The notes under the pieces are model-generated. The model was not told the DNA's origin and did not search any database. It saw only the letters and a list, made by a program, of their open reading frames with translations. This document shows, piece after piece, positions 4,767 through 26,060 of a stretch of 26,683 nucleotides of DNA. Position 1 is the first letter of the stretch. Each line of letters begins with the position of its first letter. The position numbers were made by a program, and so were the translations under genes. The DNA comes from a virus, in IMG/VR virus record IMGVR_UViG_3300010375_000047, positions 1 through 26,683 of that record. One strand, written 5' to 3'.

Positions 4767-5353
4767 GCGACACCCGGAACCACGTAGCCGGCCAGAATCT
4801 CCTCAACCCGGTCGGGCCACGCGAAGCTTTCCTTCATCGCGCCATCGTCGCCACCGAGCCCGGGGCGCTTGCCGATTCCTCGCTGCGTAGTCCACATGTG
4901 CTTCAGCAGCAGCAGCACAGCCAACTGGATGTCCTCCGGGACGGTCGCATAACCTGGCGTGTACTGGATATGCACGTTCCGCTCACCCACCGCGAACGGG
5001 ACCGCGACACCGGATGCGCGACGCACAAACGTCCCCGTCACCAAATCGACCGTGTACGCGAAAGCCGTCCCACCCGATCCGGTCGCAACCTCCGAAAGGG
5101 TGTATTTCGAGGAACCCCACGACTCCTCGACCAGGGTCACAGAACCAATCGGCCGCGTCCTCGTGACAATCGTCGGACGACCGCCGTCATACCACTCATC
5201 CAACGGCGCGCCAGGCTGACCGACAGGCCCGCCACGGTTCGCCCACATCGCCGTCGCCGCCGACGTGTAAAACGGCAACTCCGCATCCGAATCGGTCGTG
5301 GTGATGTTCAGGAAGTCTTTCGCCTGCTGCAACGTCACAACAGAAGTCGTCAC
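4763..5353 (-). CDS. Head-to-tail adaptor (gp6-like connector)
   Basis: 196 residues from GTG 5353 (GTGA overlap with the glycosyltransferase stop; weak ribosome site, so coupling is likely). The N-terminus VVTLQQAKDFLNITTTDSDAE is the typical start of connector proteins, where a helix leads into the ring-forming core. The end carries a helical segment (DIQLAVLLLLKHMWTTQRG) and an acidic/aromatic tail. This family forms the ring beneath the portal that receives the tail. The protein is longer than HK97 gp6 because of a beta-rich insert (about 50-130), as is usual in actinophages. Confidence 0.85.
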   Translation of the reverse strand: MTTSVVTLQQAKDFLNITTTDSDAELPFYTSAATAMWANRGGPVGQPGAPLDEWYDGGRPTIVTRTRPIGSVTLVEESWGSSKYTLSEVATGSGGTAFAYTVDLVTGTFVRRASGVAVPFAVGERNVHIQYTPGYATVPEDIQLAVLLLLKHMWTTQRGIGKRPGLGGDDGAMKESFAWPDRVEEILAGYVVPGVA

Positions 5354-6189: not shown

Positions 6190-6226
6190 AAAAGGGGCGG
6201 GTTGCCCTGGGAAAACAACCCGCCCC
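6190..6226 (-). terminator. Intrinsic terminator between capsid and glycosyltransferase genes
   Basis: On the minus strand an 11-bp perfect stem, GGGGCGGGTTG (6226-6216) with CAACCCGCCCC (6204-6194), encloses an 11-nt loop and is followed by TTTT (6193-6190). It begins six bases after the capsid stop codon. The T tract is short, so partial read-through is likely, which would give high capsid and lower downstream expression. Confidence 0.75.
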
Positions 6227-18222: not shown

Positions 18223-18599
18223 GTGGTTTCTTCTCTGTCGGGGTTGATGCTGTAGACCGTCACCTCCGTTCGGGCGCGATCCTTGGTGGTGTAGTGCTTG
18301 GTGACGCGGAGGTCGTGGACTTGCCAGTCGTCTGTATAGGCGCGTCCGTTGAGTGCGTCTTTGACGGATTTGACGAGGTTGTCGGCGTCTACGTGTCGGT
18401 GGGTGCCGAGGTAGAAGGCGACGTCTAGGCGGACGCAGGATGGCAACTCGGGTTGCTGTTGTGCATCCCAAGTTGCTCGGATAGCTGCTTCGTAGTCGCG
18501 TGTCGTTTTCGGCGTGTAGGTGCCGTTTCGGGTGACTCGTGGGCGCGCCTTGGCTCTTGGTTCACCGGGGATGGTGAGCCGTGCTGTCTCGATCACCAT
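18219..18599 (-). CDS. rusA: RusA-type Holliday junction resolvase
   Basis: 126 residues from ATG 18599, overlapping the recombinase stop by 7 nt. It has the opening LTIPGEPRAKARPRV, the active-site motif HVDADNLVKSVKDALNG with D71, D73 and K77, and YTDDWQVHDLRV with D90/D91. This matches E. coli RusA D70, D72, K76 and D91 closely. The C-terminal strand (TEVTVYSI) completes the fold. It cuts four-way junctions, resolving recombination or replication intermediates before packaging. It is followed by the exonuclease, as in a recombination operon. Confidence 0.93.
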   Translation of the reverse strand: MVIETARLTIPGEPRAKARPRVTRNGTYTPKTTRDYEAAIRATWDAQQQPELPSCVRLDVAFYLGTHRHVDADNLVKSVKDALNGRAYTDDWQVHDLRVTKHYTTKDRARTEVTVYSINPDREETT

Positions 18600-19408
18600 G
18601 CGCCCATTGCGGCGTCGCGGAGTTGGTCATCGTCGATGCCTACGTACCCCTGCGTCGTTGCGACTGAGGCGTGACCCATGAGCCGCTGCAAGGCCAGCAG
18701 TTCGCCACCGGATTTGATGACTTGGGTTGCGAACCGGTGCCGCAGCTTGTGGCACGTCACACCAGGGGGAAGAACCTTGGATACGTATCGGCTGACTGTT
18801 GCGGGGGCGATGTGTCCGTTGTCGCGGCCGGGGAAGACGTAGCCGGTTCGTTCGTTGCCTTCACGTTCAACACGCAACAGCTTGGCTGTCTCATCGGAGA
18901 TGGGGACGAGGCGAGTCTTGGAACCCTTGCCGACGATGCGCAACGAGTAACGACCTGGTAGTCCTTCGATGTCGCGGACGTGAACTTGGGCGATCTCCAT
19001 GGCCCTGGCACCGATGCGTACTCCGATGATGACCATGAGCTCGACGCGGGGGCTGGCTTTGTCGAGTGCGGCGTTGACGGCTTCGAGGGTTGCCGGCTTC
19101 GGTACACCGTGCGGCACGCGGACTGCGGGCAGATCTTTGGTCGGGTCGTCGGGGAGGAATCCTTTGCGGAATGCGAACCCGAAGTAGCCAGTCAGGGATG
19201 AGCGGACGACGCCTTTGGTATTGGGTGCCCAGCCCGGGTTTCCCATGTAGTCGACGAGGATGTCGTCGGTGATGTCTTCGGCCTCGAGGGTGGGGTATGC
19301 CTTCCGGAGTTTGCGGATTTGGTAGGTGCGCAGTTCGATGGTGCGCGGTGATCTCGTCGCAGCTTTCAGATATTTGAGGTAGGCGGGATCGATTGTGTTC
19401 CACGGCAT
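18593..19408 (-). CDS. int: Tyrosine recombinase (integrase/Xer-like)
   Basis: 271 residues from ATG 19408, with GAAGGAG five bases upstream. The core-binding domain is about residues 1-98. The catalytic domain has all six expected residues: R135 (GARAMEIA), K161 (GKGSKTR), H220 and R223 (CHKLRHRF), H246 (LMGHASVATT) and nucleophile Y255 (TQGYVG). No arm-binding N-terminal domain is present, so it is compact and closer in form to XerC/D than to lambda Int. It could integrate the phage or resolve genome multimers. It is transcribed with RusA and the exonuclease, which is unusual for a prophage integrase. Confidence 0.92.
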   Translation of the reverse strand: MPWNTIDPAYLKYLKAATRSPRTIELRTYQIRKLRKAYPTLEAEDITDDILVDYMGNPGWAPNTKGVVRSSLTGYFGFAFRKGFLPDDPTKDLPAVRVPHGVPKPATLEAVNAALDKASPRVELMVIIGVRIGARAMEIAQVHVRDIEGLPGRYSLRIVGKGSKTRLVPISDETAKLLRVEREGNERTGYVFPGRDNGHIAPATVSRYVSKVLPPGVTCHKLRHRFATQVIKSGGELLALQRLMGHASVATTQGYVGIDDDQLRDAAMGAW

Positions 19409-19440
19409 GTGGACTCCTTCAGTTGATATTCAGTTGTATG

Positions 19441-19526
19441 ACCCGGCCCCGTTGTTCCTCATCAGGGCCATTCCGCGTTTAGCGGGGGCGAGGAGCAACG
19501 GCGTTACGTGGCCCTAGTTGCCGGGT
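19441..19526. repeat. Nested inverted repeats in the gap upstream of the recombinase
   Basis: The 125-nt gap between the recombinase start and the next gene has ordered complements: ACCCGGC (19441-19447) with GCCGGGT (19520-19526), CGTTGTTCCTC (19450-19460) with GAGGAGCAACG (19490-19500), and CCGC/GCGG (19473-19476, 19482-19485) as an inner hairpin. AGGGCCA (19464-19470), in the loop of the second stem, complements TGGCCCT (19509-19515) outside it, which makes a pseudoknot. No gene is seen here. It could be an attachment site, recombinase-binding region, origin or structured RNA. Confidence 0.7.
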
Positions 19527-19533
19527 TGTTCGC

Positions 19534-19674
19534 CTATGGGTGCATGCTTGGATGTAGTCCGGCTACATATCCGGGTCGGCCGTTCTGCGTGTCAACGTGC
19601 GTTCCCCAGGCTTCTGCTCCGGGGCGCTCGCGCATCTCGGTGCAGATGAACTTGGCAAGTTCCTTGTTGTTCAT
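19534..19674 (-). CDS. Small protein, unknown function
   Basis: 46 residues from ATG 19674, overlapping the previous stop (ATGA). It reads MNNKELAKFICTEMRERPGA then EAWGTHVDTQNGRPGYVAGL and ends in HPSMHP. It may be a fragment-sized regulator or inhibitor. No family is recognised. It is the last gene before the structured element and recombinase operon. Confidence 0.65.
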   Translation of the reverse strand: MNNKELAKFICTEMRERPGAEAWGTHVDTQNGRPGYVAGLHPSMHP

Positions 19675-21184: not shown

Positions 21185-21220
21185 GCTGACCTCCTTTGTC
21201 GTATATCGGAACGTGCTGGG

Positions 21221-21466
21221 CTAGGCGACGGCCTTCACGAATCGCGGGTGCTCGTTGAACCAGTGCTCTACGCGCTGGATCCGCTGGTCGAAGGTCAGGC
21301 CCTCGGGCAGCGTTTCGCGCCAGCCCTCGAACTGTTCGACGCCGAGGTTTACGACAGGCCAGGTCCTGTGCGGACCGCTCTGATGCAGGTCGTGCTCGGC
21401 ATCCGCGTGGATGCCACATGTGGTGCCAGTGTCGGGGTCGATTGCGCCGCAGCGGGGGTAGTTCAT
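21221..21466 (-). CDS. Small Cys/His protein, unknown
   Basis: 81 residues from ATG 21466, with AAGGAG six bases upstream. N-terminal YPRCGAIDPDTGTTCGIHAD, then EHDLHQSGPHRTW, hold a C/C/H/H set that could bind zinc. The rest is helical with Trp (GVEQFEGWRETLPEGLTFDQ, HWFNEHPRFVKAVA). It could be a small zinc-finger regulator. It is followed by a 36-nt gap with TATATC and the strong ribosome site of the next gene. Confidence 0.7.
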   Translation of the reverse strand: MNYPRCGAIDPDTGTTCGIHADAEHDLHQSGPHRTWPVVNLGVEQFEGWRETLPEGLTFDQRIQRVEHWFNEHPRFVKAVA

Positions 21467-22074: not shown

Positions 22075-22349
22075 GATTCCTCCGGCCTAGCATCAGGGGA
22101 TAGTGGTTGGCCGAACATGACATTCAGGATGATGCGCAGATCACGAGCCTCCTGCTCATCCACTGGGAGCGACATGCCTGACACCCGGATCTCGTACATG
22201 GGGATGAACGTCTTGAGCGGCTTGACTCGCACTCGAGAGTTGGCCGAGACGTGCTCCTGCCGGCGAGGATCCGGCTCGAACATCTTGGCGAAGTCTGTTC
22301 GCATTTCGCGGAAGTATCGCTTGACCGGGTTGTCCGGTGTCGTTGTCAT
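22071..22349 (-). CDS. Small early protein, unknown
   Basis: 92 residues from ATG 22349 (ATGA overlap). Basic start (DNPVKRYFREMRTDFAKMFE) and a central strand-rich part (SRVRVKPLKTFIPMYEIRVS) followed by a helix (EQEARDLRIILNVMFGQ). This suggests a small alpha-beta protein. No known family is recognised. Confidence 0.7.
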   Translation of the reverse strand: MTTTPDNPVKRYFREMRTDFAKMFEPDPRRQEHVSANSRVRVKPLKTFIPMYEIRVSGMSLPVDEQEARDLRIILNVMFGQPLSPDARPEES

Positions 22350-22510
22350 TCAGACTCCTTCTCTGGGACAGAACTTGACCGTTCTTGTTCGGCAAGAAGC
22401 GCGTCCGCGATGTGCTCTCCGTACTCGCGGCGCGACCAGCCATCGCCCGGAGAGTCGAAGTGGTCACCCATGACGGCAACAACCGCGTCGATGATCTGTT
22501 GACGTTTCAC
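22346..22510 (-). CDS. 54-residue protein, unknown
   Basis: From GTG 22510, overlapping the previous stop (GTGA). It reads KRQQIIDAVVAVMGDHFDSP then GWSRREYGEHIADALLAEQE and an acidic tail. A short helix-turn-helix-like arrangement is possible. A longer frame (to 22669) lies over the neighbouring gene and is not used. No function recognised. Confidence 0.65.
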   Translation of the reverse strand: MKRQQIIDAVVAVMGDHFDSPGDGWSRREYGEHIADALLAEQERSSSVPEKESE

Positions 22511-25833: not shown

Positions 25834-26060
25834 CGGTCGGCCTCCTTGGTCGGGACAGAATGGATGGATGTAGGGCCGAACTTGCTGATGCCGTGGACGG
25901 CCGCGTTGTGCTTGGCGGCGAACCGCTTGGCCTCCGACGTGCTGAAGCCGCGGTAGAGCTCGACGAACGGATGCCCGTCGTTGCACTGTGCCGCGTCGGT
26001 CGGAGTGGTCGGTCCATGTCCGTCCCGTTTCGCCGTCAGGGCGACCCATCCAGCGGGCAT
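25830..26060 (-). CDS. Small early protein, unknown
   Basis: 76 residues from ATG 26060 (TGATG overlap; GTG 26072 is an alternative). N-terminal MPAGWVALTAKRDGHGPTTP, then CNDGHPFVELYRGFSTSEAK, RFAAKHNAAVHGISKFGP. The pattern 'f.ely.gfst.eAkrfAakhnaa' is like short alpha-beta domains in phage early proteins. Function unknown. Confidence 0.7.
   Translation of the reverse strand: MPAGWVALTAKRDGHGPTTPTDAAQCNDGHPFVELYRGFSTSEAKRFAAKHNAAVHGISKFGPTSIHSVPTKEADR

Follow-up and report, generated by a model that had tools for sequence, protein, structure and literature searches.

The 26,683-base IMG/VR virus record analysed here, which we call the window, carries between a chain of small genes and a recombination operon a gap in which the DNA can fold back on itself. 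The question raised by this locus is whether the fold-back is an attachment site of the neighbouring recombinase, a folded RNA of its message, or a segment that came to lie there by exchange between related phages. An earlier note, made from the letters of this DNA, had placed the element where the small-gene chain meets the recombination operon, and this position is right; that it occupies the only non-coding gap of the early region is roughly so by the list of open reading frames. The early operon around the gap is actinophage-like, and the gene next to the element is the following.

18593-19408, minus strand: small tyrosine recombinase of 271 aa, with which the recombination operon begins (Pfam PF00589, E 3e-21; phrog_1 integrase, E 1e-39)

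The recombinase is without an extended N-terminal domain, its alignment to distant phage integrases starting at residue 3, and it is followed downstream on the minus strand by RusA and then by an exonuclease and a replication-initiation-like protein.

Pairing within the gap

The three nested stems and the fourth, crossing pair of the earlier note were borne out, as their arms can be read directly from the sequence.

19441-19447, plus coordinates: left arm of P1, ACCCGGC (sequence, fold)
19520-19526, plus coordinates: right arm of P1, GCCGGGT (sequence, fold)
19449-19460, plus coordinates: left arm of P3, CCGTTGTTCCTC (inverted-repeat scan)
19490-19501, plus coordinates: right arm of P3, GAGGAGCAACGG (inverted-repeat scan)
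19473-19485: small hairpin P4, CCGC-GTTTA-GCGG, with arms at 19473-19476 and 19482-19485 (fold)
19464-19470: crossing (pseudoknot) arm AGGGCCA (shuffle test, p 0.005)
19509-19515: crossing (pseudoknot) arm TGGCCCT (shuffle test, p 0.005)

P1 pairs at 7 of 7 positions, extends to 10 pairs with G-U in plus-strand RNA, and has its foot 32 nt before the recombinase start codon. The main stem, P3, pairs at 11 of 12 positions around a loop of 29 nt, the odd pair being U-G on the plus strand and C-A on the minus strand. P4 pairs at 4 of 4 positions around 5 nt, and the crossing pair, complete at 7 of 7, crosses P3. As far as the letters go, a pseudoknot at the element is possible.

Against dinucleotide shuffles the nested fold of 19437-19531 is better than expected on both the plus strand (z -3.1, p 0.006) and the minus strand (z -2.4, p 0.014), with p values of 0.03-0.07 when wider flanks are included. 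With P1, P3 and P4 held fixed, shuffling the unpaired parts produces a crossing stem of 7 bp or longer 0.5% of the time. Over the entire window, 12-bp inverted repeats of the P3 type are no more frequent than in shuffles (9 versus 5.9, or 18 versus 15.5 with G-U allowed), equally strong folds occur at many other stretches, and a composite whose outer stem reaches at least 7 and whose crossing stem reaches at least 6, a pattern picked after the fact, is found in about 3% of whole-window shuffles. The pairing is real, and its significance is local, modest and post hoc; the structure exceeds chance for the gap, yet is unremarkable in a G+C-rich genome.

Exchange between conserved edges

Six relatives of the recombinase were found in IMG/VR (L002-L007), of which L006 was left out of the gap comparison because its record ends before the gap. 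Recombinase identity to the window is 97-98% for L002, L003 and L004 and 82-83% over the alignment for L005 and L007. The fold-back segment is absent, by alignment and blastn, from all five relatives that have the gap, and the gap sequences of L002, L003 and L004 are unrelated to that of the window despite their nearly identical recombinases. Homology to L002-L005 by blastn stops at 19436-19438, which is the foot of P1; on the far side lies a linker that is conserved in some of the relatives.

19409-19437, minus strand: recombinase leader ACAACTgaATAnCAACTGAAGGAGTCCAC with ribosome-binding site, common to L002-L005 (alignment, 88-97% identity to four records)
19438-19535, no strand assigned: 98-nt segment between the conserved edges, with no homolog in the five gap-bearing relatives
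19536-19578, minus strand: upstream conserved linker CGACCCGGATATGTAGCnGnnCTACATCCAAGCATGCACCCAT, 93% identical to the L003 record (G002), where the flanking genes differ on both sides

The leader edge, (A)CAACTGAATA, begins at 19437 and is kept in L002-L005 and recognisable in L007; the linker edge, ...GCATGCACCCAT, ends at 19536 and is clear in L002 and L003 and shortened in L004. Since homology breaks at the foot of P1 and a conserved linker stands on the other side, 19438-19535 is a mosaic-exchange slot between two conserved edges. What fills the slot varies. One or two small genes lie there in L002 and L003. In L004 a hairpin comes straight after the linker, and then the leader; in L004, L005, L007 and the window alike the slot contains hairpins, and the leader is not immediately preceded by a small gene. 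No further close relative was found through either the alignment query or the leader, and a blastn search with the gap sequence found no match among phage or plasmid records. A scan of IMG/VR with a first pattern from the element returned 36 contigs, none with the rest of the element, and scans with two other patterns returned none.

Several smaller observations belong to this region. The small genes directly 5' of the recombinase in L002 (4757-4956) and L003 (4757-4951) are similar to each other (..PDxNGILExxYPxGxTTLxQG..), and this gene is absent in the window. Positions 19498-19526 show a weak inverted similarity to the small gene of L002 at about 4898-4923 (p 0.003 before correction, with ten comparisons), which may be chance or the trace of an inversion. 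Four minus-strand intergenic linkers of about 30-46 nt (21191-21224, 25841-25870, 22346-22391 and 19536-19578) are 93-100% identical to linkers of related phages though the small genes that flank them differ; several carry a TTCTGTCCC..AAGGAG core before the start codon and resemble the start-associated sequences (SAS) of cluster K. On the minus strand, 19430-19471 reads ATG GCC CTG ATG AGG AAC AAC GGG GCC GGG TCA TAC AAC TGA, a possible frame for a peptide of 13 aa that would end in the conserved leader; inspection by eye shows no clear counterpart in the relatives.

The suggestion in the earlier note of a recombinase attachment or core site with inverted arms loses its support here, the element being absent beside recombinases that are 97-98% identical. 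That it is the core site of the adjacent enzyme strikes us as very improbable, the least probable of the readings weighed. It does lie directly 5' of the recombinase gene, as the repressor gene lies directly 5' of int in the distant relatives Angel, Evamon, JustASigh and McGonagall, and in phage BPs attP is found inside such a repressor gene, an arrangement that gives integration-dependent immunity (PMC4557955). With 38-39% identity to the window recombinase, these distant relatives are integrases from phages of Gordonia and Mycobacterium, and each of the five distant integrase loci that were read adjoins repressor or putative DNA-binding genes. No such neighbour was recognised beside the window recombinase, the gene of which is in line with the early operon rather than in a recognisable repressor-int cassette. 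Profile searches gave no repressor match among the open reading frames upstream, and a BPs-type integration-dependent immunity cassette was rejected on that ground. The core of a tyrosine recombinase site is built of two half-sites of about 10-13 bp, inverted on either side of a spacer of some 6-8 bp; here the arms of P3 are 29 nt apart and those of P4 are 4 bp around 5 nt. The region contains no tRNA-like match, and a search for prophages in bacterial genomes gave two remote matches only, with no host junction. Above all, a core should stay with its recombinase, and in L002, L003 and L004 the enzyme is kept and the element sequence is not, so that an attP core for this enzyme at the element is unlikely.

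Hairpins before the recombinase and their possible role

Four of the five relatives have a perfect stem that ends 29-38 nt ahead of the recombinase start codon. L004 has a 15-bp stem with its foot 38 nt from the start codon and L007 an 11-bp stem with its foot at 35 nt, while L003 and L005 share one homologous 8-bp hairpin, at 29 and 33 nt respectively. The exception is L002, with no clear hairpin near the leader and a sole stem of 7 bp that lies 75 nt away within the small reading frame. The hairpins of L004, of L007, of L003 and L005, and of the window are mutually unrelated in sequence. Long stems are commoner in the six gaps than in shuffles, with a combined p of 8e-6, a value in which L003 and L005 are not independent of each other and to which the window element (p 0.74 on this test of short-loop stems) adds nothing, the loop of its main stem being 29 nt long. 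When perfect stems of at least 9 bp with loops up to 12 are counted, the slot hairpins of L004 and L007 are among only 2 and 3 in records of 20 and 33 kb. What is kept in most relatives thus seems to be a hairpin at the slot position and not the structure of the window.

This pattern bears on the other suggestion of the earlier note, a folded RNA, which found no support: four of the five relatives have other, simpler hairpins, one has small-gene sequence, and no copy of the element was found. A functional pseudoknotted RNA, such as a riboregulator or a ribozyme-like leader of the recombinase message, we regard as improbable. The 7-bp crossing stem, unexpected at p 0.005 given the other stems, and a nested fold better than shuffles speak for it, whereas the pairing is slightly better on the plus strand, which is antisense to all genes, and no homolog appeared in Rfam, phage, plasmid or IMG/VR searches (Rfam covariance models gave no match at the element even at a permissive E of up to 10). 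An RNA selected for its pseudoknot should recur in the relatives; in its place they have simple hairpins or a small gene, which argues against a conserved RNA. The narrower version, in which the leader on the minus strand would act as a pseudoknotted RNA regulating the recombinase operon and the relatives would meet the same need with unrelated structures equally far from the start codon, seems slightly more doubtful again.

The inverted repeats might instead form an operator, bound by a phage-specific regulator with a specificity that differs among the relatives. A clean palindrome, CGTATAGCnACGCTATACG, stands in the slot of L003 and L005, and regulators could differ among phages while the recombinase is unchanged. 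Repressor operators are usually repeated, however, and no second copy of any slot palindrome was found in its respective record; we give this reading little credence, scarcely more than the core site.

Termination is possible in the slot of L007, where the hairpin is followed by a T-rich tail and is terminator-like, the only slot hairpin with such a tail. The stems of the window, L003, L004 and L005 have no T-tract after them on the coding strand, so simple intrinsic termination is no explanation there. In the window the tail on that strand is CATACAAC, and a scan for terminator patterns found no terminator at the element; an intrinsic terminator was accordingly rejected for it, the stem being present and the T-tract absent.

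The best-supported reading is that any stable hairpin is tolerated or favoured in the slot, as an intercistronic spacer between the small-gene chain and the recombination operon. We tentatively propose, with confidence a little short of an even balance, that the occupant of this mosaic-exchange slot is a fold-back spacer which is transcribed and by which the recombinase operon is tuned or insulated in its expression, where transcription and the regulatory effect are what we infer. Slot contents between the conserved edges would be exchanged freely among related phages, and the 98-nt fold-back segment would be transcribed within a polycistronic minus-strand message. In that message an intercistronic hairpin would form with its end 32 nt short of the recombinase start, outside the ribosome-binding site. 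Its most likely role would be to mark off the small-gene chain from the recombination operon, whether through partial attenuation, processing of the mRNA or shielding. If any stable stem would serve, the sequence would be free to change. The stems, the mosaic edges, the non-conservation of the segment and the position of the hairpins in four of the five relatives are in favour of an exchangeable spacer; the missing T-tracts in the window, L003, L004 and L005 and the want of a clear L002 hairpin near the leader are against it.

The main rival, which we consider rather unlikely though well ahead of the RNA, operator and core-site readings, is a functionless fold-back, left over at a mosaic junction from illegitimate or homologous recombination, or one of a set of hairpins that mark such junctions. 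A neutral insertion, or hairpins as markers of the breakpoints of recombination, would leave nearly the same pattern. Homology ends exactly at the segment, inverted repeats of such length occur in the window about as often as chance predicts, and the frequency of the comparable composite in whole-window shuffles also fits. Such a leftover accounts less well for hairpins of mostly unrelated sequence at nearly equal distance from the start codon, or for slot hairpins in L004 and L007 that are among the very few long ones of the whole record.

If the slot works as we propose for the exchangeable spacer, it provides a compact natural series in which nearly the same gene stands behind different, interchangeable hairpins, and this series would allow a direct test of the role of an intercistronic hairpin in an actinophage operon. 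The locus also advises caution, in that a fold from a single genome should not be taken for an attachment site or a family of RNAs if near-identical relatives can be consulted.

Comparison with known systems

HDV-like ribozymes are nested double pseudoknots in which the junction preceding the last strand carries a catalytic C. The element has the same crossing order with a hairpin between (on the minus strand X, Y, hairpin, X', Y'), and was rejected as such a ribozyme since its junction reads GAT instead of the catalytic C and Rfam gave no match. The BPs-type attP of mycobacteriophages (PMC4557955) is alike in its related tyrosine recombinase and its position 5' of int; it differs from the window in that here no repressor is recognised, the sequence is not kept with the recombinase, and the arms are unlike a core site. 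The intrinsic terminators of these phages, at 6194-6226 and in the L007 slot, likewise have a G+C-rich intergenic stem but add a T-tract on the coding strand, which the window element is without. The one at 6194-6226 is a textbook case, on the minus strand with an 11-bp stem and a TTTTCC tail; it adjoins a capsid-like gene and is common to the record G001.

The extended start-associated sequences (ESAS) of cluster K mycobacteriophages are 17-bp inverted repeats with a shared consensus, present in many copies per genome beside SAS (PMC3203893). The window element is unlike them in its single copy, which rules out membership, and in having no shared sequence. By position and shape ESAS are nonetheless the nearest known system (PMC3203893), for they too are inverted repeats with a variable spacer, placed just upstream of gene starts in an actinophage.
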